Shown one piece after another: positions 2,257 to 30,405 of a stretch of 37,503 bases of DNA. The translations under genes and the position numbers were made by a program. The notes beneath the pieces were generated by a model. The model saw nothing but the letters and a program-made list of their open reading frames with translations. It had not been told where the DNA came from and made no database searches. The DNA lies in IMG/VR virus record IMGVR_UViG_3300038456_000020, positions 1-37,503 of that record. The stretch is one strand, 5' to 3'. This stretch comes from a virus. Positions within the stretch are counted from its first letter, which is position 1. Every line of letters starts with the position of its first letter.

Positions 2257-4622
2257 CGCGTGCCGCCTTTCGCTCTGATCTTATCGACCAACTGCTTGTC
2301 GTGGTCCTTAATCGCGACCTTAACCTCGTGGGCGATCTCTTTCGGGCTCGCGCCGCTCTTCACGGTGATGTGAATGTTGGTGCCACCGATCATGAAGGAT
2401 CGTTTGTCGCCGCCGGTCTTGCGCTCGTACTTGTTGAAGGCGGCATCGGCTACTGCTTGCAGTTGATTATCGGTGTATTTAGTGTGTTCCTTCATGAATC
2501 TGTCCATCGCGTAACTCTCAGCGCTGGTCGCGGTGCCCTTTGCTCCAATGTGTCGCGCTTGGCCGTTGAAGAGATTGGCGTATGGGTTGTTGATGTGCAT
2601 ACCGGGAATGCGACCCGCTGTATCGTCCCACAGTTGAATCAGTCGGCCCATTACGTATTTGAACGCGAGTATCATCCCGTTCCACACGTTACCCCAACTC
2701 ACGGCACCAAGCATTTTCGGTATGTCCATGAAGAGATGCAGCAGTTGGCCCGGCAACTTCTTCAACTCCTTCAACGCGGCAGGTCCTATCTTGCTAAACA
2801 CGTCCTCGATCAGGTGTATGCGGGCCTTTAGGTAGTCCCACAGGTCCTCGAAAATCTTCTCTATCATCGGCAGGATGTCCTTCACCATCTTGACGGCCAG
2901 TTTCCATGCATCGCCCCATTTACCGGTGAGCAAGTCGTACACGACGCCGATCATGTCGGTGATCACGTCCCACAGGATGTGGATGGCCGTAAAGAACGCG
3001 TTGAGAATCGGTGACACCACGGACCACATGACTTCAAAGACACGATGAATCTGTGGCCAGTCTTTCACTATGTGTTGAATGAAGTGAGCAATAGCCGTGT
3101 TCACCTTAGTCATGATCGGCATCAGTTTCTGCCCGAGATCGGTGAACATGTTGTGAAAGGCCGCACTCGCCATCTTCCACGTACCGCCCAGTGAAGACAT
3201 CGAGTTCGATGCACCCTTGTTTACCGTGCCGTGCTGGTTGGCCTCGTGGTTGTACTTCTGATAAGCCTTGGTGCCCGCGCCAAGAATGGCCATGAACTGC
3301 TGCGCCGGTCCTGCTCCGAATGCCGCATCAGCCCACGCGAGTCGCTGCGTACCGTGCAGGCTGAGCATCTTGGTGCGCAGTTTCTCAATAGCGGCACTCC
3401 ATCCGATGAACTTGCCGTTACCGTCCACTATCGAGACGCCCAGTTCCTTTTGGTTGGCGATCGCCGTGAATGTCGCCTGATTCGCGCTCTTGTAGGCTTT
3501 CACTGCGTTGCGCTGGGTGATCGACCACCCCTGCATCTTCAAGTCAAGGACGCTGCCACTCCACGCGCCCTCCGCGTACTGCTTCGCCACCGCCTGCTGC
3601 CACGGGGCGAGTTGACTGAGCGCGTTCTTCTCGTCAAGGTGCGCCTTGGCCAGCGCCAACACCGGCACCATCAGTTTCTGCACACCACTCGATTGCATCA
3701 TCAACGCCCGCGTACCCGAGTAGCCCTGCGCCTTGGCGTCCACCAGCAACGCCGCGTACTGCTGATAACCACCGATCAGATCGCCTAGTCGTGTGCGCGT
3801 GTGTTGGAACTGAGTGGCCAGCGTGTCCATGCTGTTGCCGGTGAGACTCGACGTGTTCAACAGCGTGTCGGCTGCACCGGCTGCGTCGTCCACTTTGATC
3901 TTGAAGGTGGCCATAAATCCTGATAGCGCCGATGTGGTGGTGCCAAGGTCCGTGCCCGATGCCTCGGCCAGTTTCCACGCCACGGACATGAACTTGGTGG
4001 CCTGCACTTGGTTGAGCGCTCTGCCCTGCATAAGTCCGAGTTCGCCCGCCACGGACGCGTACGCCGTCGCGATCTGGTTGGCGCTGTACTGCGATTGGAA
4101 TGACGTGCCTAGGAAGGCCTTACCGATGGCCTTGGCCTTGGCGACGGTGATGTCGGCGCTGTTGGCGATGGATACTTCGGCGGTTTGCATGTCAGCCGCC
4201 GATTTCAGTGCTGCGTAACCGACTCCACCGATCACCACGGCTGCTGCCGCCGCCGCTCCTACGTACGGGTTGTCTGACATTCCAAGTGTGATGAGTTTGG
4301 ATATCTTGCCTAGACCGCTCGATACCTTGCCACCGAACTCGCCCGCGAACGTCGAGCCCGCCGCCGACCCCTCGGCTGCGGCCTCAAACGTGCTACCCTT
4401 GCCGAACAACGAACTAAAGAATCCCGGCTTTTTGGTCGTAGTCTCAATGCCGCTGGCTAGATTCTCACCGACTTGCTTACCCTTGGCCGTAGCGTCAGCC
4501 GCCAGTGTAGAACCAGCAACACCGGCTGATGTGCTGGCATCGACCTCTGCCGCCGTAGTTGCGGCAAATCCCGTGGTCAGTGGCCGAATACGCACAAATG
4601 CGTCACCAATAACGGTAGTCAC
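2253..4622 (-). CDS. Tape measure protein
   Basis: A 789-residue protein that sets tail length and is later ejected through the tail tube. It starts with GTG at 4622, directly after the chaperone TAA, and the ribosome site GGAGG lies inside the end of that gene. The sequence has the typical make-up: Ala/Ser/Gly/Lys-rich helices, a hydrophobic Gly/Ala segment near residues 120-140 (AAAAAAVVIGGVGYAAL), repeated Trp/Ile-rich helices between about 500 and 640 that may be membrane-active, and a basic C-terminus (DKQLVDKIRAKGG). It follows the frameshifted chaperone pair, as tape measures almost always do. At roughly 1.5 angstrom per residue, a rule for the family, it would specify a tail of about 120 nm, hence a long non-contractile siphovirus tail. 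Confidence 0.93.
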   Translation of the reverse strand: MTTVIGDAFVRIRPLTTGFAATTAAEVDASTSAGVAGSTLAADATAKGKQVGENLASGIETTTKKPGFFSSLFGKGSTFEAAAEGSAAGSTFAGEFGGKVSSGLGKISKLITLGMSDNPYVGAAAAAAVVIGGVGYAALKSAADMQTAEVSIANSADITVAKAKAIGKAFLGTSFQSQYSANQIATAYASVAGELGLMQGRALNQVQATKFMSVAWKLAEASGTDLGTTTSALSGFMATFKIKVDDAAGAADTLLNTSSLTGNSMDTLATQFQHTRTRLGDLIGGYQQYAALLVDAKAQGYSGTRALMMQSSGVQKLMVPVLALAKAHLDEKNALSQLAPWQQAVAKQYAEGAWSGSVLDLKMQGWSITQRNAVKAYKSANQATFTAIANQKELGVSIVDGNGKFIGWSAAIEKLRTKMLSLHGTQRLAWADAAFGAGPAQQFMAILGAGTKAYQKYNHEANQHGTVNKGASNSMSSLGGTWKMASAAFHNMFTDLGQKLMPIMTKVNTAIAHFIQHIVKDWPQIHRVFEVMWSVVSPILNAFFTAIHILWDVITDMIGVVYDLLTGKWGDAWKLAVKMVKDILPMIEKIFEDLWDYLKARIHLIEDVFSKIGPAALKELKKLPGQLLHLFMDIPKMLGAVSWGNVWNGMILAFKYVMGRLIQLWDDTAGRIPGMHINNPYANLFNGQARHIGAKGTATSAESYAMDRFMKEHTKYTDNQLQAVADAAFNKYERKTGGDKRSFMIGGTNIHITVKSGASPKEIAHEVKVAIKDHDKQLVDKIRAKGGTR

Positions 4623-6601: not shown

Positions 6602-6975
6602 TACAGCGCTCCGATGTCTTGGAAGCACTGGCCCTCGATGAAGGAGATACCCAGTGCGCCACGCGTGCGTGTCCACAGAACGACGTAGTTGTTGCCCAAC
6701 GCGTCGGTGATGATGTCGTCACCGTAAATCGTGTCACCGTCGAACGGGTCGGCTCTGAACGAATACAGCACGCGCTCATGCTCGCCACCTTCCGCGAAGT
6801 GGCGGGTGCCTTGACCAGCGTTGATCTGTGCGCGTACGCCAGTGGCGATCACGTCCATGGTGATGTCGTCCGGGCTGTAGTCAGTTTCGGAGTCGAGATC
6901 GATGAGCGAATCGGGGTCGGCGTTGTTCACCGCACGCGTGACCGTGAGCGTGGTCGTAGCAAGAGGCAGGTTCAT
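6601..6975 (-). CDS. Head closure protein (neck)
   Basis: A 124-residue protein from ATG 6975, in ATGA overlap with the connector gene. It has an N-terminal strand (LATTTLTVTRA), an acidic segment, then VIATGVRAQINAGQGTR, an E-x-x-x-R beta hairpin (ERVLYSFRADPFDGDTIYGDDIITDALGNNYVV) and a short C-terminal strand. This arrangement, with the phrase that reads as 'address of the domain plus definition of units', is common in head closure proteins of the SPP1 gp16/HK97 gp7 type. No strong motif is seen and the call rests mainly on length and position between connector and gp10-like gene. Confidence 0.68.
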   Translation of the reverse strand: MNLPLATTTLTVTRAVNNADPDSLIDLDSETDYSPDDITMDVIATGVRAQINAGQGTRHFAEGGEHERVLYSFRADPFDGDTIYGDDIITDALGNNYVVLWTRTRGALGISFIEGQCFQDIGAL

Positions 6976-7667
6976 GCGGGCAAACTCCTGAATATGTACT
7001 TCTTCAATGTGTGATAGTCGGATGCGTCTAGCAGTGAACCGTAGAGTTTCGGGTCCACTGTGATCGAGACATCGCCCACGTGCATGCTCGTGACGCCGGG
7101 GGCGGGCACGACATCGCCCGCGCCTTGACGCCTTTGCAGCATGCGCACTGCGACCTTCAAGATGACCGTGCGCAACTCACTGGGCAACGACTCGCGCGTC
7201 CACCCGCCGCGATACGTGACCGTGCCGTACTGCTCAATCCAAGTGAGCGCCCAAAATCCTTCGATCGTGTCGTCCGGTGGTACGTATCGAATCTCTACGT
7301 TGTCGATGATGATGGTGCCACCGTTGCCTGCTGTGTAGTTGTCGTTTGTTGGGTCACCAAGCCCCACGACTTCACGCACCGGAATGGCCGATGGGCGCAC
7401 CGAGCCTGCCGTACCAAAGATGGCGTCGACATAGCCGTCATACAGGATGCGCAGTTGCTCCGTGTAGACGCCCTCACGCAGTGGCCGCTTCACTATTTCC
7501 TCGCATTTGCGGGTCGCCGTGTCAAGTAGCAACTGGTCGATGTCGGGGTATCCTGAGCCGAACTCCAACACGAGATCGTCCGGGATGACGACCGGCAGAA
7601 TCGCGCCAGCGGGTACGAGTTGCGCCGGTCCAGAGTCCGGTATTCCAACTGGGTACATGTTGCTCAT
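6972..7667 (-). CDS. Head-tail adaptor/connector protein
   Basis: A 231-residue protein starting with ATG 7667 in ATGA overlap with the preceding gene. After a proline-rich leader it has a helical segment (DIDQLLLDTATRKCEEIVKRPL), a central beta region with Arg-Pro-Ser-Ala-Ile-Pro-Val-Arg-Glu-Val (a turn common in gp6/gp15-type adaptors), then WALTWIEQYGTVTYRGGW and a long helix rich in Leu and Arg (SELRTVILKVAVRMLQRRQ). The helix-sheet-helix plan and the RGGW-x-x-x-x-LPxxLRxxxLKVAxR phrase are typical of adaptors that dock beneath the portal. Size is a little larger than the common 110-160 residues. Confidence 0.75.
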   Translation of the reverse strand: MSNMYPVGIPDSGPAQLVPAGAILPVVIPDDLVLEFGSGYPDIDQLLLDTATRKCEEIVKRPLREGVYTEQLRILYDGYVDAIFGTAGSVRPSAIPVREVVGLGDPTNDNYTAGNGGTIIIDNVEIRYVPPDDTIEGFWALTWIEQYGTVTYRGGWTRESLPSELRTVILKVAVRMLQRRQGAGDVVPAPGVTSMHVGDVSITVDPKLYGSLLDASDYHTLKKYIFRSLPA

Positions 7668-8180: not shown

Positions 8181-8828
8181 ATGCGAAGTCAGTCAGTCAA
8201 GGCAGCAATGAAGGACACAGGCCGTCGATGTGTGGCCTGTGGTATCGAAGTCAAGAAGGGCGAAGGCTACTACCACGCGGCCTCCTTCCGTGGACCCAAG
8301 ATCGTGCGGCACCACCGATGCGGCGCGTTCCGTCAGTCACAACTCACCGGTAACGACAAACTCTCCACCTTGTACTCGTCATTCGAGGACGTGCAGGACT
8401 GGATTGCCGCATGCAACGAGTTCGACATCGATGGCGCGAAGGAAGCGATGGAGGCTTGCGCGAGCGAGATCGAGAACGTCGCGGAAATGTACCGTGAGTC
8501 GCAAAGCAACATGGAGGACGGCTTTCAGCACGCCACCTCGCAGAGCGATGAACTGGGCGACAACGCCGATCAACTGGAGGACTTCGCGGGCGACGTACGA
8601 TCTGCCGGTGAGGACCTTGAGGAGTTCGACGAGGACGCGGCCAACGACGAGTTCCTTGCGTCAATTGAGGATGACGACGAGTTCGCGCTCAGCGAGTTCG
8701 ACAACATCGAGGCTCAGGCTGCAGCGATCAACACCGCGCGTGAAGTGTTTGTCAGCGAGAAGCGCGACGAATGGGCGACCGAATGCATGGACGCGATGGA
8801 GGAGGTGCTGGGCAACAGCCCGTTCTAA
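8181..8828 (+). CDS. Zinc-knuckle protein with acidic tail (moron-like)
   Basis: A 215-residue protein and the only plus-strand gene, with ATG 8181 behind AAGGAG. Residues 17-47 hold a CxxC...HxxC pattern (C17, C20, H44 or H45, C47) that could bind zinc. The phrase RGPKIVRHHRCGAFRQSQLTGNDKLSTLY follows. The remaining 140 residues are strongly acidic and helical, with few hydrophobics. I recognise this head-plus-acidic-tail type from unknown proteins of other phages but no function is established. It has its own promoter and a strong terminator and is inserted between the capsid gene and the connectors on the opposite strand, the layout of a moron. An acidic protein may mimic DNA or bind a basic host protein; that is conjecture. 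Confidence 0.85.
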   Translation: MRSQSVKAAMKDTGRRCVACGIEVKKGEGYYHAASFRGPKIVRHHRCGAFRQSQLTGNDKLSTLYSSFEDVQDWIAACNEFDIDGAKEAMEACASEIENVAEMYRESQSNMEDGFQHATSQSDELGDNADQLEDFAGDVRSAGEDLEEFDEDAANDEFLASIEDDDEFALSEFDNIEAQAAAINTAREVFVSEKRDEWATECMDAMEEVLGNSPF

Positions 8829-8839
8829 TCACGCATACG

Positions 8840-8880
8840 CAAGAGCCCCGGTCACCCTCATCAGGTGGCCGGGGCTCTTG
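8840..8880. terminator. Strong bidirectional terminator hairpin
   Basis: Arms at 8840-8856 and 8864-8880 can form a 17-bp stem around CAAGAGCCCCGG with a seven-base loop. The only imperfect pair is a G-U wobble in the plus-strand transcript but an A-C mismatch in the minus-strand one, so the hairpin is slightly better for the plus-strand gene that ends at 8828. It also lies 17 bases after the capsid gene, which converges from the other side. There is no long T-run on either side, only CTCTTGG or CTCTTGC. Confidence 0.8.
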
Positions 8881-8896
8881 GCTGTTCGCAGGGGGT

Positions 8897-10177
8897 CTAC
8901 GAAAGTGACGCCACCACGAACCAGTCGGGGCGGTAGACCGCGAGCGCAATACGCTCTTCGATCAAGATCGCCACCTTGTTGTTCGTGAAGTAGTCGGCGT
9001 GCTGATCTCCAACACGGACGACTGCGTGTGAGCGGTCGAACAACTGCGCACCCGTCTTCCACGAGCCCACGATTGCTTCGCCCTGCGACACGGAACGCGA
9101 GCGCACCGTGGGCAAGCCCCAAATCGTGGTCGGTGCAGGACCGAACGGAAGACCCGGTGCAGCCGAAACCGGCGAACCGTCGAGCCACTCGGCGTGGCGA
9201 GTGGTCACCATCGTCCAGTAGTCGAGCGGGTTCATCGCGATTCCGTCAGCGTCACCGTCAACGTTCTCGATCAGACCGATGCTCTTGCCCATCGTCGCGG
9301 CAAAGTCACCAGCGATGCTCGCCTGCGCCTGCACGTTCGGGAAGTTGACGATTCCGAGCAGGTCGGACCCAAGCCCGGTGCCGTTCAGAATCTGCTGCTC
9401 CTCGCGCACCTCGAGCATGTAGCCCAAACGTGCGTTGATGTAGGACTGCAGGGTCGGCGCGTCTTCCAAGATTTCGGTCGTGACCGGCACCCATGCGGCA
9501 ATCTTGCGCACGATCGCAACGTCCTGCGTGAAGAGCATGGCGACTTCGGCCTTGGTCGCACCTTCGGCCACGGTCGTTGCGCCCTCTTCATACACGCGGG
9601 GGTTGTTCTCTCGAATGTACGGAATCGCGCTCAGCGTGGTGTTACCACCAGCGATGATGTCGCGAACGAACAGACGGCGGTGGTCAATCGCGCCCGGTGG
9701 CAGGTACGGCGTGCCTCGTGCGACCCACAAACCGGCTGAGCCGTTGGGGTCGAGATACGCGCCCTCGGAGATGATGGTTCGCACTTCGATGTCCGGCGAC
9801 GTTCCCGCACCCTGACTGTTCGACTTGCGCCACCCCGCGAACTTCTCGGACTCCACGACCTGACGACCGAGCGAGCGAGTCTCACGGTCTTCGAAGTTCG
9901 CGCCTGTTCCTTCGGGTCCTGCACCCTGACGACCGGCTGCTCGCTTCTCAGCGGCTTCGTCGCGCTCACGCAACTCAGCGATTCGCAGTTCGGCGTCGAG
10001 CCCGGTGACCTCGTGCGCCACGTCACGCATTTCGCGCGCCCATGCCTCACTTCGGGTCGTCGGGTCCTTCTCGCGCATTTCGCGCAGAGTGTCGCCTAAC
10101 GAGAACAGCGACGTGCGCAGTTCGGCGCTTGACGTCACCATTCCGCCCTTCTTCTCTTCTTCCTTCACGGGGGCCAT
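8897..10177 (-). CDS. HK97-type major capsid protein
   Basis: A 426-residue capsid subunit. ATG 10177 follows AAAGGTGG and was chosen over a GTG three codons upstream, which overlaps that ribosome site. The first ~100 residues are charged and helical (LGDTLREMREKDP, VTGLDAELRIAELRERDEAAEKR), as in the scaffolding delta domain cleaved by the prohead protease. The mature part has HK97-fold phrases: DIIAGGNTTLSAIPYIREN, VREEQQILNGTGLGSDLLGIVN, MNPLDYWTMVTT, GLPTVRSRSVSQGEAIVGSW, and a C-terminal IEERIALAVYRPDWFVVASL. An upstream protease gene supports maturation by cleavage. Its own leader carries the two-part element at 10262-10294, consistent with high late expression. Confidence 0.95.
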   Translation of the reverse strand: MAPVKEEEKKGGMVTSSAELRTSLFSLGDTLREMREKDPTTRSEAWAREMRDVAHEVTGLDAELRIAELRERDEAAEKRAAGRQGAGPEGTGANFEDRETRSLGRQVVESEKFAGWRKSNSQGAGTSPDIEVRTIISEGAYLDPNGSAGLWVARGTPYLPPGAIDHRRLFVRDIIAGGNTTLSAIPYIRENNPRVYEEGATTVAEGATKAEVAMLFTQDVAIVRKIAAWVPVTTEILEDAPTLQSYINARLGYMLEVREEQQILNGTGLGSDLLGIVNFPNVQAQASIAGDFAATMGKSIGLIENVDGDADGIAMNPLDYWTMVTTRHAEWLDGSPVSAAPGLPFGPAPTTIWGLPTVRSRSVSQGEAIVGSWKTGAQLFDRSHAVVRVGDQHADYFTNNKVAILIEERIALAVYRPDWFVVASLS

Positions 10178-10261
10178 GTGGTCCACCTTTCACGTTTGGT
10201 TACTACCTGTACAGTCAGGTGGTCGGCTGCGCCCCGTTTTATTGGTCCCTGTGCTGCTACA

Positions 10262-10295: not shown

Positions 10296-10847
10296 TCAGT
10301 CCGGTAGTTCGTCTAGCGGGGTCTGGCCCCACTGTCCCTGCCACTTTCGCAAGAACTGCGTATCGTACGCCATGTTCTCGCGGCCGTGGTGCCAGACCGG
10401 GGGGTCGTCGATATCGCCCCTCACTACGGCCCCCATGCACGACACGCCACCCGCCTGCTTGACGTACTCGGCGGTCCAGTCAGTTTCCGCGATCACTGCC
10501 TCGCGCTTGGTCAGTGTGAACGGCACGTCCATCGACTCCAGCACCACGCGCTCGTATACGCCAAGGAAACACGAGTAATGCTCGCCTCTGGCGTGATTTA
10601 GACAGATCGAGCCGCGCACGTTAGTGATCAGATCGAAAACGACGCGACTAGTGATGACCGTCGAGTCCTGCAGGAATATGAAGCGATCGGCGGTCGTGTG
10701 GCGTAGGCACCAGCGAAGCGTACCCAGTTCATAACCGCCCTCCTTCGGCGCGACGTAGATCACGTGTTCGCGGTTGATCGAGCGCGAACACTCGAGAGCC
10801 CAGTCTTCGCGACCGTCACTGGAGGAGACTACGATGAGATCAGTCAC
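10296..10847 (-). CDS. Small GT-A type glycosyltransferase
   Basis: A 183-residue protein from GTG 10847, which overlaps the cytidylyltransferase stop as GTGA. The N-terminus (TDLIVVSSSDGREDWALECSRS) is a beta-alpha start of the GT-A nucleotide-sugar fold; residues 51-62 (TTADRFIFLQDS) form the strand that ends in the acidic metal/nucleotide site, here Q-D-S rather than D-x-D. Later phrases (RGSICLNHARGEHYSCFLGVYERVVLE, AETDWTAEYVKQAGG) fit an acceptor-binding half. At 183 residues it is short for GT2, so it may be a minimal enzyme. With two neighbours it makes a sugar-transfer cassette placed beside the capsid gene. The acceptor could be a virion protein; not proven. Confidence 0.7.
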   Translation of the reverse strand: MTDLIVVSSSDGREDWALECSRSINREHVIYVAPKEGGYELGTLRWCLRHTTADRFIFLQDSTVITSRVVFDLITNVRGSICLNHARGEHYSCFLGVYERVVLESMDVPFTLTKREAVIAETDWTAEYVKQAGGVSCMGAVVRGDIDDPPVWHHGRENMAYDTQFLRKWQGQWGQTPLDELPD

Positions 10848-11314
10848 AGCGTCACGCAATCGGGCTGGTGGATGCCGTTGTAACCGCCGCACCGTGCGCA
10901 GTAGTTGACCGCGTTTCGTCGATCGGTGCTGCTCTCGGGCTTGATGAACGAGACGTACAGCAGGTTCAACTCGCGGATGTCGAGCCAATCGTGCGTGATG
11001 CCCAGTTGTGCCATGTAGTCCTTGCGTGCCCAGTCTGACCCGATCGCTAAAACGCACCGCGTAGAGCGGGTACGCAACCAATGATCAATGAACTCCGGAG
11101 TTCCCCCATCGTGGATACGCGTATCGAGTACGTAGCGACTGATCTTCTCGCGGCGCACGCGCTGGTTGTCCAGCGGTATGATGCCCTTGTACTGCCGCAC
11201 AAACTCGTCGCTATTGATAGCCACCGTGAGATCGCCCATCTCGTGGCACACGTTAAAGAGTTTGATATGGCTGCTGTGCAGCACGTCGAAAGTGCCGATG
11301 GTCAACACGTTCAT
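10844..11314 (-). CDS. Cytidylyltransferase, TagD-like
   Basis: A 156-residue nucleotidyltransferase from ATG 11314 (ATGA overlap). The start NVLTIGTFDVLHSSHIKLF is the nucleotide-binding GTFDxxHxGH motif, but with H13-S-S-H16 in place of H-x-G-H. AVGS-like phrases follow: TVAINSDEFVRQYKG, then RREKISRYVLD and CVLAIGSDWARKD. This is the plan of glycerol-3-phosphate cytidylyltransferases, which make CDP-glycerol, and of related CDP- or ADP-activating enzymes. The C-terminal motif ISTTxIxxR is replaced by PESSTDRR, and a four-Cys/His end (CARCGGYNGIHQPDC) resembling a zinc ribbon is added. The substrate is unknown. It sits between two glycosyltransferases, so it probably supplies an activated polyol or sugar to them. 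Confidence 0.75.
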   Translation of the reverse strand: MNVLTIGTFDVLHSSHIKLFNVCHEMGDLTVAINSDEFVRQYKGIIPLDNQRVRREKISRYVLDTRIHDGGTPEFIDHWLRTRSTRCVLAIGSDWARKDYMAQLGITHDWLDIRELNLLYVSFIKPESSTDRRNAVNYCARCGGYNGIHQPDCVTL

Positions 11315-12402
11315 GTCTTAGCCTTTGCTCGGTTGGTGATCGCCTGCTGCCACGCTTCGGCCCAGCGGTAAGCCCGCTTCTCGTACGTCCACAACCGTGC
11401 GACCTCCAGCCCGGACTCTGCGTATTCGGCACGCAGATGCTCGTTAGCCAACAACATGCGGAGTTTGCGCGTCCAGTCGTGCGGGTGATCGGCAATCATA
11501 CCCGCCCCCATCGAACCCATGATCATGTACTCGGGAGTCGAACTCGCTACGAAAGGCACTCCCAAAGCCGCGTACTCGATGCCCTTTAGCCACGATTTGC
11601 TGTCGTTGAAGATCGATGTTTTCAACGGCACTAAGCCGATGTCGAGATTCTTGATCGCCTCCGGGTATTTGAGGATAGTGACCGCTTCCGTGTAGATCGC
11701 TTCACCCGCGTTGAATCCAAGCATGTGTGCGGTCCGGGGGTCACCAATGGCCACGAATCGAGCGCCGAACTCTCTGACCGTGCGTGCCACGGAATCGCGC
11801 ATGACTTCCAGATCGCCGGGGTGCGTCTCGGGCTTGCCGGTCCAGCCCACCAGCGTCTGTCCCGCCACCCTCTCGTCCAGCAGAGCCCCTTCGGTCTTTG
11901 CTCGCACGTCGAAGTAGGACTCGGGCACGCAGTTGCGAAGGACGCGAACTCGAGAAGAAGGGACGACCTCCGCGAGTTTCGGGGTCGAGACAGTCACCAT
12001 ATCAGCCGCGCGACAGGCTCGGCTTAGGTGGTCTGAGTTGTAGAAGGGCGAATCGTGGTGGCGTACGAAGGCGACGTTGCGCTGATCGATGTGCCAGAAA
12101 TCGTCGTCCAACTCGACGACCACGGCTACTCCCTGCGCTTGAATCATTGGTATGACATCGGCCATGACCTTGTTGAGCGGGCGCTGAAAGATCACCACAT
12201 CGTAGTCTTTGAGGAGTTCAACGCCAGTGACTACTGCGTCGTTTGGTCCACCACCCCATTCCTTGTTGAGTGTGACCGTGAACGACTCGTCCGTCGCGAG
12301 TTCGAAGTCGATCTCGTTTGCCAGAACGCGTCCGGGGAAAAATAAGCGATACCACCCACAGCCTCCTTCATCGGCGTTTACTATCAGTACCCGCATGCCC
12401 AT
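11311..12402 (-). CDS. GT-B glycosyltransferase (GT4-like)
   Basis: A 363-residue protein. ATG 12402 overlaps the previous TGA by one base (TGATG); GTG 12405 and ATG 12396 are alternatives. The N-terminal Rossmann half starts MRVLIVNADEGGCGWYRLFFPGRVLA, then DVVIFQRPL and VAVVVELDDDFWHID. The C-terminal half has LVGWTGKPETHPGDLEVM and the donor-binding phrase NLDIGLVPLKTSIFNDSKSWLKGIEYAALGVPFVASSTPEY, in which the E-x7-E of GT4 enzymes is modified to S-K-S-x-x-K-G-x-E-Y-A-A-L-G. The C-terminal helix crosses back (RWAEAWQQAI). The enzyme would transfer a sugar from a nucleotide donor. Together with the two downstream genes it suggests glycan attachment to virion proteins or modification of host surface sugar. 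Confidence 0.85.
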   Translation of the reverse strand: MGMRVLIVNADEGGCGWYRLFFPGRVLANEIDFELATDESFTVTLNKEWGGGPNDAVVTGVELLKDYDVVIFQRPLNKVMADVIPMIQAQGVAVVVELDDDFWHIDQRNVAFVRHHDSPFYNSDHLSRACRAADMVTVSTPKLAEVVPSSRVRVLRNCVPESYFDVRAKTEGALLDERVAGQTLVGWTGKPETHPGDLEVMRDSVARTVREFGARFVAIGDPRTAHMLGFNAGEAIYTEAVTILKYPEAIKNLDIGLVPLKTSIFNDSKSWLKGIEYAALGVPFVASSTPEYMIMGSMGAGMIADHPHDWTRKLRMLLANEHLRAEYAESGLEVARLWTYEKRAYRWAEAWQQAITNRAKAKT

Positions 12403-12740
12403 CACGAGATCGAAGTGATGTCGATATGGTCCGGGGGCTGAGGGATACCGGCGCGTGCACGCGCATTCTTCATGCGGCGACGGGCTTTGGCTGCTGTTTT
12501 GGCTGGTACGGTGACTACGAGCAAGAAGGGCTTAGCGCGGAAGCCGCCGCTATCATCCGTGTCTTGCGGTTGCATTTCAAAGGTGCCGTTAAATGGCAAG
12601 TCCCGAAGCGTGCACTCGACTCCGATGCGGTTTTTACACCATTCATCGAAGTGAGCGCGCGCTCCGGGCTCGGCCAGTGTGTCGAGATCGGTTTCGACTC
12701 GGACGGTAACGATCACCGACTCTAATGGGGCGTCTGTCAT
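12402..12740 (-). CDS. Unknown 112-residue protein
   Basis: The gene starts with ATG 12740 only seven bases after the -10 of the promoter at 12777-12748, so the message is probably leaderless. The protein has an N-terminal strand pair (LESVIVTVRVETDLDTL), a helix (PGARAHFDEWCKNRIG), then ECTLRDLPFNGTFEMQPQD, a strand (KPFLLVVTVPA) and a basic helix (KTAAKARRRMKNARARAG). No family is recognised. It heads the transcription unit that continues into the glycosyltransferase cassette and overlaps it by one base, so a role connected with that cassette or with neck/capsid function is possible. Confidence 0.7.
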   Translation of the reverse strand: MTDAPLESVIVTVRVETDLDTLAEPGARAHFDEWCKNRIGVECTLRDLPFNGTFEMQPQDTDDSGGFRAKPFLLVVTVPAKTAAKARRRMKNARARAGIPQPPDHIDITSIS

Positions 12741-13183: not shown

Positions 13184-15241
13184 TTACTTGCCCTTTTTGG
13201 CTTCGTCCTGCGAAGGCGCGAATCCGGCGGTTACGTCGCTCGCGTGTTCGGATGCGTGCTGCGCCGAATTGGTGAGTTTGACCGCTCCTTCTCGCGATGC
13301 CTTCGACGCGTCACTTGGCGTGTCTTCCATGCCGTGCTGTTCGTCGTGCTTGTCCCACGCCTCGGCTGCTGCGTAGTGCGCGTTTGCCGCTGCAGTGTGC
13401 GCGGATGCGATATCGGACTTGCCCGCTGCCGTGGCCGCATTTGCCACCGCCATGTGAGCATCGCCTAACGCGTTGTGTTCCGCGCCGGGTTCGGCATCGC
13501 CGGGGTTGTGCGCGACTTTCCACGCCAACGTCTCGGCTGCCGCCGCCGTCTTGTTGGAGATCGAACCGGCCTTGGTGCTGCTTCCGTCCTTGCCCCCACT
13601 GCCAGCGGCGAACATGCCCTTGTCGTCACGAGGGTGAGAATCCTCACTCCACCCGCCGCCGTCACGCATTTCCGCAAGAACGTCGGCGGTTTCCGTGATC
13701 AGCGATCGGTGTTCCCGTCGCGTCTTGATGGCTTCTAGTTGGGCGGCGCGTTCGTCGCCCTTCAATGATCCGTCTGTGTTCCATGTGTCAGGCACTTTCC
13801 AGCCCTCCTCGTTTGCTCGGTTAATGATGTACCGGCGAATGGTATCGCCGTTCTTGTTGCCAAGACCTACCGCGTGTACTGCCGCGTCGAAGTCGTCCTT
13901 GTTGTCGATTGGGTAGGACGGTTGCCCCTTGTCGTTCTTCATCGCGTGACCCTTGGCCAGCAACGCGTCCAACTCTGCCGCGCTGTATTTGCCGCCGCGC
14001 CACTCCAGATCGTCAGCCTCGCGCTTACCGTTCAGCGACAGGGCCGTGTACGACGCGCCGATCGCCTTTTTCGACGCGGCGTACGCGTCACCGGTCGGCT
14101 TCGGGCTACTGCCTGCATTGTGCGCGTCCCATGATGACTTAGCCATGTCGTGGACATCGTACGCTTTGTTGTGCGCATCGGCTGCTCGATCGTTGGCTTC
14201 TGCCGCCACTTTGTTGCCTGCCATCCGCTGCACCGTGGCCTCAGTACGGTGCTGTTGCGCCACCGTCAAGTGATCTTGTGCCATGGTCTGGTGTGCGCTT
14301 GAATCCTCGCTCTTAGCGTTGATCTTACCCGTGATGTGGGCCATCGCTTGGTCGGCCTTGTCACCGCCGCCACTGGACCAACGCCCGTTGTCGTCGCGGG
14401 GCTCGTCGTCGCTCCGTGTCGCCAGACGGTCACGCACTTCCATCAGAGCGTCATCGAGCGCGAGATCGCCCGCTGCATAACGTAACAGCACGTCAGCGGC
14501 CACCTCCGTAGGCGTCGAGCGCGACAACTGCAACACCTTCGTGCCGCCGTTGCTCGCCTCGATCACGATGCTTGTCTCGGGCAGGTCGTAGTCCGTGATC
14601 ATCGTGAAGTCGCCCTTCTCCACGTATTCGTCGGCGTTGCGAACGAAGCCGATACTGAACGAATCGAGTGACCCGCTCTTTAGTTGCGAGAACGCCTGAC
14701 GCGCACCGGGCACATCCTCGAAGTCGTCGAACTCGAACAACACGTCGAGCCCGGTGGAATCCTCGCGCCAATCCACTCGGTGACCCAACACTGAGCCGAT
14801 ACCGGCGTGCATGCCGTGACCAAACAAGAGAGTAGGTCGCATGGGGTGTGCATCAAGATATTTCTTCGCTCCACCGACTGCGAACCGCGTACCGTACGTG
14901 TCGGTGAGCGTGTAGTCGTTTACTCGTGCCCACACTTGTGCGCCATGATCGGCGGTGGCATCTCGCTTCTCTAGGATGACTACTTGACGGACGCGATGCT
15001 CGGTGCCGCCCTTCTTGTCTCGTTGTCCACGCTTCACGGTTCGTGTCTCCTCATCGTCGTCATCGTCGTCGTCCATGCTCGCGGGCACGATCTCCATTGG
15101 GTCCAGCACTTGCGTGTCGCCGGAATCGGCCCACGTGCCATCATCCTGTTGCGAATAAACACGGACCATGACCTTGCCGTCCTTGGGACCGACAATAAGA
15201 CCACGCCCGTTCTTCCACTTGACTGCATCGCCCTTTTTCAT
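13184..15241 (-). CDS. Prohead protease (S78-type) with scaffold-like C-terminal modules
   Basis: A 685-residue protein from ATG 15241. Residues 1-55 form a small barrel (KKGDAVKWKNGRGLIVG...), followed by an Asp run (57-63). Residues 85-235 are the HK97-type protease, with likely catalytic His142 (FGHG), Ser196 (SFSIGF) and Glu222 (DLPETSIV). It would cleave the capsid delta domain and itself. The rest is unusual: a tag-like motif at 279-293 (DEPRDDNGRW), an Ala/His-rich helical segment 294-395, a segment 411-487 (SYPIDNKDDFDAAVHAV...IRRYIINRA) like a short domain that often follows phage proteases, a second tag at 531-550 (SEDSHPRDDKGMFA) and another Ala/His-rich helical segment 565-675. 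These helical parts are probably scaffolding. Typical S78 proteases are 180-250 residues, so this is a protease-scaffold fusion. Confidence 0.87.
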   Translation of the reverse strand: MKKGDAVKWKNGRGLIVGPKDGKVMVRVYSQQDDGTWADSGDTQVLDPMEIVPASMDDDDDDDEETRTVKRGQRDKKGGTEHRVRQVVILEKRDATADHGAQVWARVNDYTLTDTYGTRFAVGGAKKYLDAHPMRPTLLFGHGMHAGIGSVLGHRVDWREDSTGLDVLFEFDDFEDVPGARQAFSQLKSGSLDSFSIGFVRNADEYVEKGDFTMITDYDLPETSIVIEASNGGTKVLQLSRSTPTEVAADVLLRYAAGDLALDDALMEVRDRLATRSDDEPRDDNGRWSSGGGDKADQAMAHITGKINAKSEDSSAHQTMAQDHLTVAQQHRTEATVQRMAGNKVAAEANDRAADAHNKAYDVHDMAKSSWDAHNAGSSPKPTGDAYAASKKAIGASYTALSLNGKREADDLEWRGGKYSAAELDALLAKGHAMKNDKGQPSYPIDNKDDFDAAVHAVGLGNKNGDTIRRYIINRANEEGWKVPDTWNTDGSLKGDERAAQLEAIKTRREHRSLITETADVLAEMRDGGGWSEDSHPRDDKGMFAAGSGGKDGSSTKAGSISNKTAAAAETLAWKVAHNPGDAEPGAEHNALGDAHMAVANAATAAGKSDIASAHTAAANAHYAAAEAWDKHDEQHGMEDTPSDASKASREGAVKLTNSAQHASEHASDVTAGFAPSQDEAKKGK

Positions 15242-15271: not shown

Positions 15272-15427
15272 TTACGGTGCATCATCCTCAAAACGACCAC
15301 GCCACTCTGCTAGCGTCTGCTCACGAGGAACGATGGGCTTCGTCGTTGGTTTCAGATCGAGAGTGTCCTTGTCCGCAAGATGTGCCCACACAGGAAACAC
15401 CTCATCCGGGTCGTAGTTATTCGTCAT
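15272..15427 (-). CDS. Small 51-residue protein
   Basis: A short gene from ATG 15427, overlapping the end of the previous gene by 11 bases in another frame and preceded by GGAG at a good distance. The product is acidic with a Lys/Pro centre (LDLKPTTKPIVPREQTL) and ends AEWRGRFEDDAP. That ending resembles the sequence just before the tag in the GNAT protein (MEWRGSFDPDLHP). Together with the 81-residue gene it looks like the remains of a second copy of the GNAT gene's N-terminal half. It could instead be a real small protein; reading frame and ribosome site are good. Confidence 0.6.
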   Translation of the reverse strand: MTNNYDPDEVFPVWAHLADKDTLDLKPTTKPIVPREQTLAEWRGRFEDDAP

Positions 15428-15662
15428 CCGAATCTCCGTTCATGATCTTGTCGAACTCCTCACGCAATTCATCGGGCATGGCCTGCGCTGCCGGTAGCGT
15501 GTCGAAGTGGCGTAACGCCTTGTGTTGCTCCACGATCGGCAACCCTTCCAATCGAAGCGCCCACAGCAGACCGGCCATGTCGGTGACCATCGCACCGTCA
15601 TAATATAAATCCCATGTCTGCTTGGGCCAGTCTTCGTTGTGGTCGTCTAGTGCTGTAGTCAT
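15417..15662 (-). CDS. Small protein paralogous to the N-terminus of the GNAT protein
   Basis: An 81-residue protein. ATG 15662 is preferred over ATG 15674 because GGAGGG stands five bases before it. The body (EDWPKQTWDLYYDGAMVTDMAGLLWALRLEGLP...HFDTLPAA) matches residues 5-56 of the preceding gene product (W-D-L-Y-x-x-G-x-x-V-T, then G-L-L-W-A, a Q-x-x-A phrase and F-x-x-L-P-A), so the two are paralogous domains, one alone and one fused to a tag and acetyltransferase. Function is unknown. An extended -10-like TGCTACGGT lies just upstream (15686-15678). Confidence 0.75.
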   Translation of the reverse strand: MTTALDDHNEDWPKQTWDLYYDGAMVTDMAGLLWALRLEGLPIVEQHKALRHFDTLPAAQAMPDELREEFDKIMNGDSDDE

Positions 15663-15690
15663 CGTGCCCTCCATTCTACCGTAGCATTTG

Positions 15691-16680
15691 TCACGATGAC
15701 ACGCTGGGCGTGATAGCGGCTACGGCCTTCACTTGTTCAACCGTCCACGACGATCTCCGATCATCAGTTACCGTGCGACCGATCGATTCGTGATAAGACA
15801 CAGCCGAATATGTGGCTTCGCTTTGGATGGCTGACCCCGTTGCTGCTGCTGCTTGGGCGACTGCTATCTGCAACGCTGTACCCGTTCCCGGAACTCGGCC
15901 CATTGAACCAAGATAACCGATGTGTAAAGGAACAGTCTGGATGATGTCACTTGCTGCTGCGTCCGATGGTAACGACGAATTGGGATATGGTGCTGACTGA
16001 CCCGGCGTGTACGACATAGCACCAGCCACGTTGCCTAACGCGTCGTAAGCCACAGCCACCATCGCCCCCGGATAGTTCAGCGCTACACCAGTAAAATCGA
16101 CGCCCTCCCAAATGCGGTCCAATGATAGACCATCACTCTTCTCACCGAAGGTGGCTTTCGCGTAATCGTCGTCGTCGCGTGCCATGTTTACCATATCTTG
16201 TATTTTGTCTGCTGCGCCACGGTAGTTACGACGTGCTGCGAGTAATGCCGTACCGGGCTTATCTTTGGACAGCACCTTGATTGTCCCACCGGCTGCGTGA
16301 AAGTCGTCTACTTGCTTCTGTATGAAGTCGTTGACGGCCTTAGGCAACGCGCTAGGTTTACCGTCTCCAGCGGTTGTTGACCATCGATCCTTCTCATCGT
16401 GTGGGTGCAGGTCCGGGTCGAACGAGCCCCGCCACTCCATCGTGCTTTGCCGTATCGCGCCACGGCTGCGCACGAAGTTGTTAACCGCGTCCTTGAGCAC
16501 TGCCGGTGCCGGTGTCCACGCTGGTAACTGCGTGAACTTCTGCACGGCTGCTACTTGATCGGGGGTGGCGAGATCAGTGGCATTGATCGCCCATAATAGT
16601 CCGGGCACCGTGGTGACTAGCGTGCCCACACAATACAAGTCCCACTTGCGAGACTTGACCCAATCCTCGTTGTCGATCAT
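15691..16680 (-). CDS. Tagged GNAT-type acetyltransferase, probable virion cargo
   Basis: A 329-residue protein from ATG 16680 (ATGA overlap). Three parts are visible: an N-terminal domain (5-60) shared with the 81-residue gene downstream; the tag motif at 87-105 (FDPDLHPHDEKDRWSTTAG); and a C-terminal GNAT fold. In the latter, VAVAYDALGNVAGAMSY is the beta4-like strand pair, residues 252-272 contain motif A with R262-V-P-G-T-G267 (R/Q-x-x-G-x-G/A), followed by the helix TALQIAVAQAAAA, and YHESIG at 296-301 corresponds to the aromatic phrase of motif B. It would transfer an acyl group from CoA to an unknown amine. Lying between portal-MuF and protease, it is most simply a head cargo enzyme. 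The link to the capsid is inferred. Confidence 0.75.
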   Translation of the reverse strand: MIDNEDWVKSRKWDLYCVGTLVTTVPGLLWAINATDLATPDQVAAVQKFTQLPAWTPAPAVLKDAVNNFVRSRGAIRQSTMEWRGSFDPDLHPHDEKDRWSTTAGDGKPSALPKAVNDFIQKQVDDFHAAGGTIKVLSKDKPGTALLAARRNYRGAADKIQDMVNMARDDDDYAKATFGEKSDGLSLDRIWEGVDFTGVALNYPGAMVAVAYDALGNVAGAMSYTPGQSAPYPNSSLPSDAAASDIIQTVPLHIGYLGSMGRVPGTGTALQIAVAQAAAATGSAIQSEATYSAVSYHESIGRTVTDDRRSSWTVEQVKAVAAITPSVSS

Positions 16681-18455
16681 GTTTGCATCACACTCCAGCG
16701 TTGCGAACCGCCCAGCAGCACTAACTCACGTTCACCGAAGCAACCCATGCCGGTTACCGCTGAAGACAATACTTGGGACGCGGGCACCGTGCCAGAAATG
16801 ATGACACCGTTACCACCCGAGAATGAGCGTGCCGTACGCATGGAATACGAGAACGCAGATAACGGGCGCAACGGCACGGTTTCTGGTCCTGCTGGTTTCA
16901 ACACCTCGTCGTCCGTCCTAGGATTCGGATTGGGCACGTAACCGTAGTGATTGTCTACCCATTCAGGCAGTACAGTGCTTGGCGATTCAGCGCCGTCGAA
17001 CTTAAAACCTCGATATACTTGCACGTCCGTGATGCCTTCACTTTTAAGATACTCTTGCGTGTTATCGTATTGTGCGCGTAAAAATCCCCGATACATATCG
17101 CCCTTGGCGTCATACTCCTTTTGAGTTCGTGTGGCGAGGTCGGAGTCCGGCAACCCTTGGATGAGTCCCGTGTTGCCTAGCCATCCAGTCGTGTCAATCA
17201 ACCCAAACTCTTGCTTGGCCGCTTCTTGCATCGCCAGCGATGTCGCACTACTGTCGTTGGAGGTGCCCGCCCATGTACCGATCAGATTGGACACGGCTTC
17301 TAATCGGAGCGTGTCAGCCACTGCCGGGTCGTTTCCTAGTTTTAAATCCCCACTCGCCAGTGCCGACTGTGTAATACCTGAACCGTTCTTCGTCAAATAA
17401 TCAAGTTTGCCTACGTATGCGTAAATAGGTTGATCAGTCCACGGACTACGCCCCGGCTGCCACACGTCATCTTTAGTAAGCAGTGATGCAGTGGGCACAT
17501 CTAAGTTCTTGTATCCAGTGAGCATGCCCTTATCGTCGTAAGTGTGCTCTCCCTCCATGCGGGTAATGCCCAACAACTGTTCATCGTACTTGGTGCCCAT
17601 GCGCTTCGCAATGTCAGCACTTACCGCCGCCTTACATGCTGACGCTACTTCGTCGCTGGCTACTATCGAATCATCGTTGTGCCAATCAACCACAGGCCCC
17701 GGATTGTAGTTGCCTGCGTTTACGCTGTTTTCTAGTCCTTTGTTCTCGATAGCATTACCGGTCATGGCTTCCAATGTGTAATGATCCGCGCCTACGCCGA
17801 CCGTGGTGTCAGGCTTTAGTTGAATCGCACTACCAGCGGTAGTGGCCCACCGGCCCTTATCGTCCTTGGGGTGGAGATCAGGGTTCCACTCGCGTTCTTC
17901 TAATAACCATTCCTGTGTCTGCCTCCCGGCCCACAAGTGCCAATAGCGGTCCATCACTGTGCCTTCGTCTTCGGCGTGACCGAAATAACGAATTTCTACC
18001 GGTACGTTTTCCATCCCGAGTGACACTGCCGCATCGCGTCGATGATTGCCCTCGCTGATGCGCGGTTGCCCACCGTGATCGACCGTGATGAAGATGGGTG
18101 ACCGAATGCCGTTCTCTGCGATACTTTGCTTGAACTCCTCCCAGTGTTGACCAGTCGGCCCGCGATTAGGGCCATCGCCCGGTCGCTCAGTCGCCGCTCC
18201 TCGCATGTTAGCGATGGCCCGTGTTGGGACGGTGCCCATTTCCGATCGAGTGATGTGCTGATTGTTGCCTGTGGTGCCAGTGTAATTGGTGTATTTAAGA
18301 TCAGCACCACCCTTGGTGTACATGCCGGTCTTATCCGTTTCTACCTTGGCATCACCGGTTGCAAACTCACCCTTCTCATCGCGTGGATGTTCATCCGGGT
18401 CCCAAGTGCGCTCTTCTAGTAGCCATTCCTCGGTCTGTCGAAAGTGCAGCGACAT
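16677..18455 (-). CDS. Tagged ParB-like plus ADP-ribosyltransferase fusion, probable virion cargo
   Basis: A 592-residue protein whose ATG 18455 shares a base with the portal stop (TAATG). Residues 8-34 carry the tag (WLLEERTWDPDEHPRDEKG). Residues 99-160 are a ParB/sulfiredoxin-like domain, with SPIFITVDHGG and the phosphate-binding phrase SEGNHRRDAAVSLG at 134-147. Residues 180-208 repeat the tag (WLLEEREWNPDLHPKDDKG). The C-terminus from about 400 is an ADP-ribosyltransferase of the R-S-E class: Arg482 in VYRGF, S533-A-F-S-Y-S as the STS region, then E575-R-E577 (FGERELVLLGG), the catalytic E-x-E. It should move ADP-ribose from NAD to arginine-type targets, as T4 Alt and VIP2 toxins do. 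Two tags with two enzymes suggest fusion of two cargo genes. Confidence 0.75.
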   Translation of the reverse strand: MSLHFRQTEEWLLEERTWDPDEHPRDEKGEFATGDAKVETDKTGMYTKGGADLKYTNYTGTTGNNQHITRSEMGTVPTRAIANMRGAATERPGDGPNRGPTGQHWEEFKQSIAENGIRSPIFITVDHGGQPRISEGNHRRDAAVSLGMENVPVEIRYFGHAEDEGTVMDRYWHLWAGRQTQEWLLEEREWNPDLHPKDDKGRWATTAGSAIQLKPDTTVGVGADHYTLEAMTGNAIENKGLENSVNAGNYNPGPVVDWHNDDSIVASDEVASACKAAVSADIAKRMGTKYDEQLLGITRMEGEHTYDDKGMLTGYKNLDVPTASLLTKDDVWQPGRSPWTDQPIYAYVGKLDYLTKNGSGITQSALASGDLKLGNDPAVADTLRLEAVSNLIGTWAGTSNDSSATSLAMQEAAKQEFGLIDTTGWLGNTGLIQGLPDSDLATRTQKEYDAKGDMYRGFLRAQYDNTQEYLKSEGITDVQVYRGFKFDGAESPSTVLPEWVDNHYGYVPNPNPRTDDEVLKPAGPETVPLRPLSAFSYSMRTARSFSGGNGVIISGTVPASQVLSSAVTGMGCFGERELVLLGGSQRWSVMQT

Positions 18456-29687: not shown

Positions 29688-29969
29688 CTAGCAGTCGTCG
29701 TCGGACTCTTGTTGCACCCTTCTCGAGAACTTGAAGCGTCGTCGTTGTCGGCCACTCATGCCGCCCCACACGCCAATACTGATGTTGTGTTGCATCGCAT
29801 AAAATACGCACTCGTCGCGTACCGGGCATATCCCGCCACCACACTTGCCGTTGCAGAAGTCTTTAGCCGACTCAACCTGATCGGCGTTAGGCGAGAAGAA
29901 TAGCGAATCTGTCAGGTCGTTGCGACCAAGACATTTCGCTTGTCTGGTCCACTCGTCAGTAGTCGCCAT
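29688..29969 (-). CDS. WhiB-family iron-sulfur regulator
   Basis: A 93-residue protein from ATG 29969, overlapping the phosphatase gene by 14 bases. It has the WhiB plan: Cys13, a second group with Cys39, Cys48 (CPVRDEC) and Cys54, then GVWGGMSGRQRRR at 66-78, the turn that binds the sigma factor and the basic DNA-binding tail. Four Cys hold a 4Fe-4S cluster in known WhiB proteins. The spacing is odd: between the second and third Cys WhiB normally has two residues, here eight (FCNGKCGGGIC), and an additional Cys43 lies inside. A further Cys ends the protein (DDDC). Phage WhiB proteins such as that of TM4 act on host sigma-A transcription and can block WhiB2. Actinobacterial host is strongly implied. 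Confidence 0.9.
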   Translation of the reverse strand: MATTDEWTRQAKCLGRNDLTDSLFFSPNADQVESAKDFCNGKCGGGICPVRDECVFYAMQHNISIGVWGGMSGRQRRRFKFSRRVQQESDDDC

Positions 29970-30405
29970 CGCACACTTGCAAGCAGGTCAGCCCCATGTC
30001 TCGCCAAAGCCGCACAATGCGATCTCGGTCGTCGAGACAGAATAGCACAGTGCGGCCCTTTCCTACGATGTGCGTGTCGTACATCTCTTTCTTGACAACG
30101 GCATCGGGCCGTCGATCTTCCGTCTTGCGCATGTGTAACTCGATGGCGTGGTGCGAGCCTCCCTTGCTATGCTCGTACCACGACACCAAGCCATGATTGC
30201 GAAGCCAGTCGTAAGTGTCACTCCACGCTGAATCTTCACGCCCGCTCATGTAGATGATTTTGTGCCCAGCGGCCAGCATCGTACGCACTATCGTGATCAC
30301 TGGCTCGTTGGGCTCATCCTGCAACACTTTCGTGTAGTCGTACGGGTGGCGATGCGTCCCGTGCAAAGCCACCGTACCGTCGATGTCGCAGATGATCACG
30401 TTCAC
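29956..30405 (-). CDS. HAD-type phosphatase related to the 3'-phosphatase of polynucleotide kinase
   Basis: A 149-residue protein starting with GTG 30405 (GTGA overlap). HAD motif I is D7-I-D9-G-T, motif II is SGRED with Ser54, motif III/IV includes a Lys (K105 or K106) and LDDRD (D125, D126). The phrase PYDYTKVLQDEPNEPVITIVRTM-L-x-x-G and the ending GLTCLQVCDGDY match the phosphatase half of T4 Pnkp (PseT), which removes 3'-phosphates from nucleic acid ends. No kinase P-loop domain is attached, so this is a stand-alone 3'-phosphatase. Such enzymes are used to repair host-inflicted RNA or DNA nicks. Substrate is inferred from the family. Confidence 0.88.
   Translation of the reverse strand: MNVIICDIDGTVALHGTHRHPYDYTKVLQDEPNEPVITIVRTMLAAGHKIIYMSGREDSAWSDTYDWLRNHGLVSWYEHSKGGSHHAIELHMRKTEDRRPDAVVKKEMYDTHIVGKGRTVLFCLDDRDRIVRLWRDMGLTCLQVCDGDY

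Follow-up and report, generated by a model that had tools for sequence, protein, structure and literature searches.

Background

Self-glycosylation is already known in phages and has been documented in a few mycobacteriophages. Genes gp35-gp38 of phage Corndog, located between the portal and protease genes, encode an O-methyltransferase, two glycosyltransferases and an N-acetylglucosaminyltransferase, and few capsid peptides of this phage were recovered (PMC4351075). The capsid of phage Che8 was reported to bear glycans (PMC11256854). PMC12363180, citing Freeman et al. 2023, describes Corndog gp38 and Che8 gp110 as indispensable for glycosylation of the capsid. The glycosyltransferases of freshwater actinophages, in turn, were proposed to protect DNA or to change the host wall (PMC10202952); if it serves virion glycosylation, the locus described here suggests an alternative reading for them.

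The window, which is the whole stretch of DNA analyzed, is a 37,503-base IMG/VR virus record. Beside its HK97-type capsid gene it carries a cassette of three genes, for a GT-B-type glycosyltransferase (GTB), a nucleotidyltransferase of the cytidylyltransferase type (CT) and a small glycosyltransferase-like protein (GTA). Judged from sequence, the cassette is best read as a virion-glycosylation set with a virion protein as the acceptor, which is probable rather than certain. As far as the searched libraries and the open-access papers go, two features are new: a GT-A family that is absent from Pfam and PHROG and associated with a cytidylyltransferase, and the extent to which this family is embedded in head operons.

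Organization of the window

The cassette lies on the minus strand (Table 1), flanked by the head-protease and CBM-like genes and by the HK97 capsid gene. It belongs to an operon with the order terminase, portal, ParB-like protein and further genes, S78 protease, CBM5/12-like protein, SM, GTB, CT, GTA, HK97 capsid and head-tail adaptor. The overlaps between the cassette genes are 4 nt each (GTGA, ATGA). In these respects the original prediction was borne out, since all three ORFs were found in place on the minus strand, with the 4-nt overlaps and beside the capsid gene. The predicted position between a decoration protein and the capsid gene holds for the capsid flank, but on the other side the additional ORF SM separates the CBM-like protein from GTB. 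Also, the CBM-like gene had been placed downstream and is actually upstream in the direction of transcription. The sugar-binding-like motif ascribed to it was recovered as a CBM5/12-like N-terminus, at a sub-cut-off score (24.5 bits against 26.2). That this protein is a candidate decoration protein is a guess from its position.

Table 1. Head-operon genes at and around the cassette of the window
Feature	Position	Strand	Remarks
Head-tail adaptor	6972-7667	-	Minus-strand operon
HK97-type major capsid protein	8897-10186	-	PF05065, E=1.3e-29; PHROG 10, E=7.8e-43; first gene after the cassette
GTA, 183-aa orphan glycosyltransferase-like protein	10296-10847	-	GTG start; 4-nt overlap with CT; GT-A-like model
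CT, 156-aa nucleotidyltransferase, glycerol-3-phosphate / ethanolamine-phosphate cytidylyltransferase type	10844-11314	-	PF01467, E=1.5e-8, above cut-off; PHROG 7878, E=1.8e-17
GTB, GT-B-type glycosyltransferase, 363-364 aa	11311-12405	-	PHROG 7162 'glycosyltransferase', E=3.4e-40; Pfam Glyco_trans_1_2 (PF13524), E=1.2e-5, just above gathering cut-off
SM, 112-aa protein, no assigned function	12402-12740	-	Kept directly before GTB; homologues in L002, L013 and, by profile, L100
CBM5/12-like protein, 111 aa	12778-13113	-	PF02839, E=2.8e-5, below its cut-off
Prohead protease (S78)	13184-15241	-	PF04586, E=7.8e-9; PHROG 80; upstream boundary of the cassette interval

The host is pointed to by a WhiB-like gene at positions 29688-29969: whiB was stated to be exclusive to Actinobacteriota (PMC10202952), and the host of the phage would therefore be an actinobacterium. 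A polynucleotide-kinase-like protein (29956-30405) is encoded beside this regulator in the non-structural half of the window. The late operon includes a 592-aa protein (16677-18455) whose N-terminal region is ParB-like, on weak Pfam and PHROG matches, and whose C-terminus shows, by eye only, R-S-ExE-like motifs recalling ADP-ribosyltransferases. The ORFs at 15417-15674 and 15691-16680 share a similar N-terminal stretch (EDW...WDLY...GLLWAL/GLLWAI), which suggests a duplication. Just past the capsid gene, an opposite-strand gene (8181-8828, plus strand) encodes a protein in which Cys and His residues cluster at the N-terminus and the C-terminal portion is acidic; its counterpart in contig L002 lies at 13667-14362 on the minus strand, so that the gene is kept in two contigs, without a confident family.

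Two contigs are of the window type. L002 (48784_000146) has the same order of protease, CBM-like protein, SM, GTB, CT, GTA and capsid, and L013 (50120_000073) adds a Methyltransf_24 methyltransferase before CT and a GT-like gene (GT3) after GTA. Homologues of the CBM-like protein occupy the same place in both. The capsids of the two contigs are 64-66% identical to that of the window and the three enzymes 39-52%; because the gene order is retained at this protein identity, the cassette is more than a chance arrangement. Genes of the GTB family were also found between protease and capsid, without CT or GTA, in nine further loci (L014, L100, L102, L114, L125, L126, L127, L150 and L158), several of which carry other sugar genes (epimerase, methyltransferases, other GT-like genes).

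Enzymes of the cassette

The GT-B transferase of the original prediction is upheld by the PHROG and Pfam matches in Table 1. GTB is approximately 50% identical to its homologues in L002 and L013 and 38% identical to gp174 of Arthrobacter phage Racecar.

GTA had no match in Pfam or PHROG, and no Pfam GT family was found for any of 18 members of its family. A first structure model from three sequences was too poor for use (pLDDT 47). The AlphaFold model from 18 relatives reached a pLDDT of 86.5 and a pTM of 0.84. GT-A enzymes predominate among its Foldseek neighbors in the PDB (TarS, SpsA, TarP and beta-1,4-galactosyltransferase, for example), at probabilities near 1, with TM-scores of only about 0.45-0.53 and E-values no better than 1e-3. 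On this model GTA is GT-A-like by fold, and it would be enzymatically active as a transferase; the small GT-A transferase that had been predicted is thus supported at the level of the predicted fold. Against a viral structure library, uncharacterised phage proteins ranked first (TM 0.85, 34% identity), and the Che8 glycosyltransferase Q855A2 was matched at a TM of 0.51 (E=3.8e-4). At the position of the DxD motif the family has QDS or QDT (FLQDS in the window), a variant with a single, invariant Asp. W46, D61, E121, W124, R156 and K168 are also invariant. The window protein is 47% and 44% identical to the copies in L002 and L013. GTA is under purifying selection, with a median dN/dS of 0.15; the 267 pairs compared have nucleotide identities of 75-97% and are not independent of one another.

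CT carries HSSH at residues 13-16 and ends in CARCGGYNGIHQPDC. Both the HSSH motif and the zinc-ribbon-like end of the original prediction are present; they are oddities of the window copy and not features of the CT family. HxGH was found in 23 of 25 aligned CTs, the exceptions being the window, which has lost the glycine, and L083 (HSNH). An SST/STT-type core is present in most of the 25 and reads ESSTDRR in the window. The CT of L096 has the canonical forms HVGH and ISST. The CxxC...H...C extension at the C-terminus is private to the window CT in this alignment. Among all ORFs, the pattern C..CG...H...C had six matches and occurred in a CT only in that of the window (counted twice, as the window and as L001); the zinc-ribbon end was accordingly rejected as a family feature.

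A profile of the 25 CTs matched, as nearest solved relatives, mainly cytidylyltransferases for small phospho-compounds: 3elb, an ethanolamine-phosphate cytidylyltransferase (PCYT2), at E=6.6e-32, and glycerol-3-phosphate cytidylyltransferases (GCT) at E=1.7e-26 (1coz) and 4.3e-26. The chain of 5x3d is named phosphoenolpyruvate phosphomutase (E=3.8e-20), and we take it to be the cytidylyltransferase domain of Fom1. A lower score was obtained with 3glv, which is named an LPS core biosynthesis protein (E=1.6e-14). Since GCT/PCYT2-type structures score far better than 3glv by profile, a cytidylyl assignment appears likelier than a heptose adenylyl one, and the PHROG label 'heptose adenylyltransferase' was dropped. 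With the NCBIfam equivalog TIGR01518 the window CT scored 30.8 bits against a cut-off of 165.4. The CDP-activated donor proposed originally is therefore favored for the family by the profile matches, but the window copy itself stays below the family-specific cut-off and departs from HxGH.

Distribution and linkage to head genes

The GTA family was reached by alignment search only. Single-sequence searches gave no match in 50,697 phage records and no confirmed relative in IMG/VR; the alignment search gave 147 relatives in viral contigs confirmed by tblastn, of which 80 were kept as loci. A scan of genome contigs with the GTA alignment, in which one short pattern was used, yielded 13 pattern matches, none of them confirmed, and hence no cellular source.

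GTA and CT co-occur almost constantly, in varied gene orders. Of the 80 GTA-centred loci, 76 have a CT no more than 3 kb away, and the remaining four are cut short by a contig end beside GTA or its GT2 neighbor. Conversely, GTA was found in none of 77 GTB loci without CT. A capsid-family gene is present within 3 kb of GTA in 54 of the 80 loci and an adaptor gene in 60. When 80 loci were centred on CT, the capsid gene was within 4 kb wherever one was detected (50/50) and the adaptor within 2 kb in 69 of 71; neither gene was detected in nine loci. The cassette lies within the capsid-to-adaptor interval in approximately 90 of the 94 CT- and GTA-centred loci with both genes detected, a count that includes contigs retrieved by both searches and loci that are not independent, having been retrieved through their resemblance to the same genes. 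Window-type contigs make up the exceptions: there the cassette precedes the capsid gene. In the capsid-to-adaptor form, a second GT-B family (GTBf) and a GT2-like enzyme are nearly always present, CT usually, and GTA or GT3 optionally, in several gene orders and occasionally with an extra gene inserted.

Some additional ORFs were observed in these loci. Between CT and the adaptor gene of L071, a 166-aa ORF (8428-8928) resembles an HNH endonuclease by eye and may have entered the cassette as a mobile element; the set contains four copies related to it. In L079, CT is immediately followed by the gene for a 475-aa protein (2335-3762) in which a GT25 domain was recognised (PF01755, E=6e-14) and which weakly resembles Che8 gp110 (26%, E=2e-6). 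In L049 (2485-3219) a 244-aa ORF within the cassette is GT17-like by eye and has eight related copies in the set.

Proposed function

The cassette would be expressed late, together with the head proteins, because its genes sit within head operons. CT most likely would use CTP to activate a small phosphorylated compound, and a short glycan on a virion protein most likely would be built or capped by the two transferases. The acceptor may be the capsid subunit, the adjoining CBM-like protein or the tail tube. Virion glycosylation, as predicted originally, is favored by the head-operon embedding in many contigs and by the Corndog precedent, while the modified head protein stands as a proposal. Several findings speak against it: CT and GT pairs occur away from head genes, the cassette has no sequence link to Che8, the window capsid and the putative tail-tube protein carry no Ser/Thr-rich C-terminal tail, and the glycine of HxGH is lost. 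If the reading is true, virion glycosylation would be widespread among environmental phages, some of them related to an actinobacterial phage, and would be encoded inside the head operon with a transferase family outside Pfam and PHROG.

Modification of host surface glycans, for superinfection exclusion or receptor masking, is an unlikely alternative; the head-operon site would then merely suit late transcription. It is in line with the TagD-type teichoic-acid precursor enzymes among the nearest solved relatives of CT, with the proposal that freshwater actinophage glycosyltransferases prevent superinfection via cell-wall glycosylation (PMC10202952), and with similar CT and GT pairs outside head operons in Racecar, Daubenski and TunaTartare. 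The tight linkage to capsid and adaptor genes across different head operons argues against it, as do the cassette proteins themselves, which have no evident membrane segment (top 19-residue mean hydropathy 1.44).

Two further readings are rather improbable. In one, a special form of virion glycosylation, CT would make a CDP-activated polyol, amino-alcohol or phosphonate and GTA would put it on a head protein, giving a teichoic-acid-like virion decoration instead of an ordinary sugar. In the other, of similarly doubtful standing, the window CT is impaired and the cassette is a partly decaying copy, though its relatives are active. Decay would fit the HSSH of the window, at a site where 23 of the 24 other CTs in the alignment have HxGH and one has HSNH, as well as the altered residues near SST and the private C-terminal extension. 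Against it, the two catalytic histidines are retained, as are SST and a basic residue, the gene has no internal stop or frameshift, and the GT genes are intact.

Phage enzymes that glycosylate DNA exist. Glycosylation of the phage DNA against host nucleases, suggested for freshwater actinophage glycosyltransferases (PMC10202952), is very improbable here, given that the cassette is placed among head genes and that no modified-base biosynthesis gene was recognised among the scanned window genes, many of which have no family.

Comparison with known systems

TagD and PCYT2 resemble CT in fold and, in part, in motifs, and the window copy stands apart in its score below the equivalog cut-off and in HSSH; the TagD/GCT signature motifs are HxGH and RTEGISTT, against HSSH and ESSTDRR in the window. 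Che8 gp108-gp110 likewise form a multi-GT cassette, but one near the right genome end, away from the capsid gene, and no CT is annotated among genes 94-112. Sequence homology to gp108-gp110 was rejected, as six cassette profiles gave no match; the only match is at the fold level, to Q855A2 (391 aa), taken to be gp108 from its name and length. Similar CT and GT pairs distant from capsid genes are found in the large phages Racecar (Arthrobacter), Daubenski and TunaTartare (Streptomyces).

Corndog shares with the window sugar enzymes within the head operon, and glycosylation of its capsid is reported (PMC4351075, PMC12363180). By its published description, on which the comparison is based, its four genes include no cytidylyltransferase. 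Linkage to head genes is found in Corndog but not in Che8, so that it is not strictly defining; the cassette loci display it, and they encode phage glycosyltransferases, GTB by profile and GTA by predicted fold.

Pontimonas phage phiPsal1, whose host is actinobacterial, has the order capsid, group 1 GT, methyltransferase, GT2 and neck gene. Unlike in the cassette, the methyltransferase is on the opposite strand and no CT or orphan GTA is annotated there. Its orf 10-12 have in common with the cassette loci a group 1 GT and a GT2 between capsid and neck gene. Between the phiPsal1 GT2 and the GT2-like protein of L096 the identity is 42.5%, and the phiPsal1 capsid is 51% identical to that of an aquatic capsid-to-adaptor cassette group. 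A comparable capsid-GT-GT-neck layout is thus available in public records from a phage with a named host.
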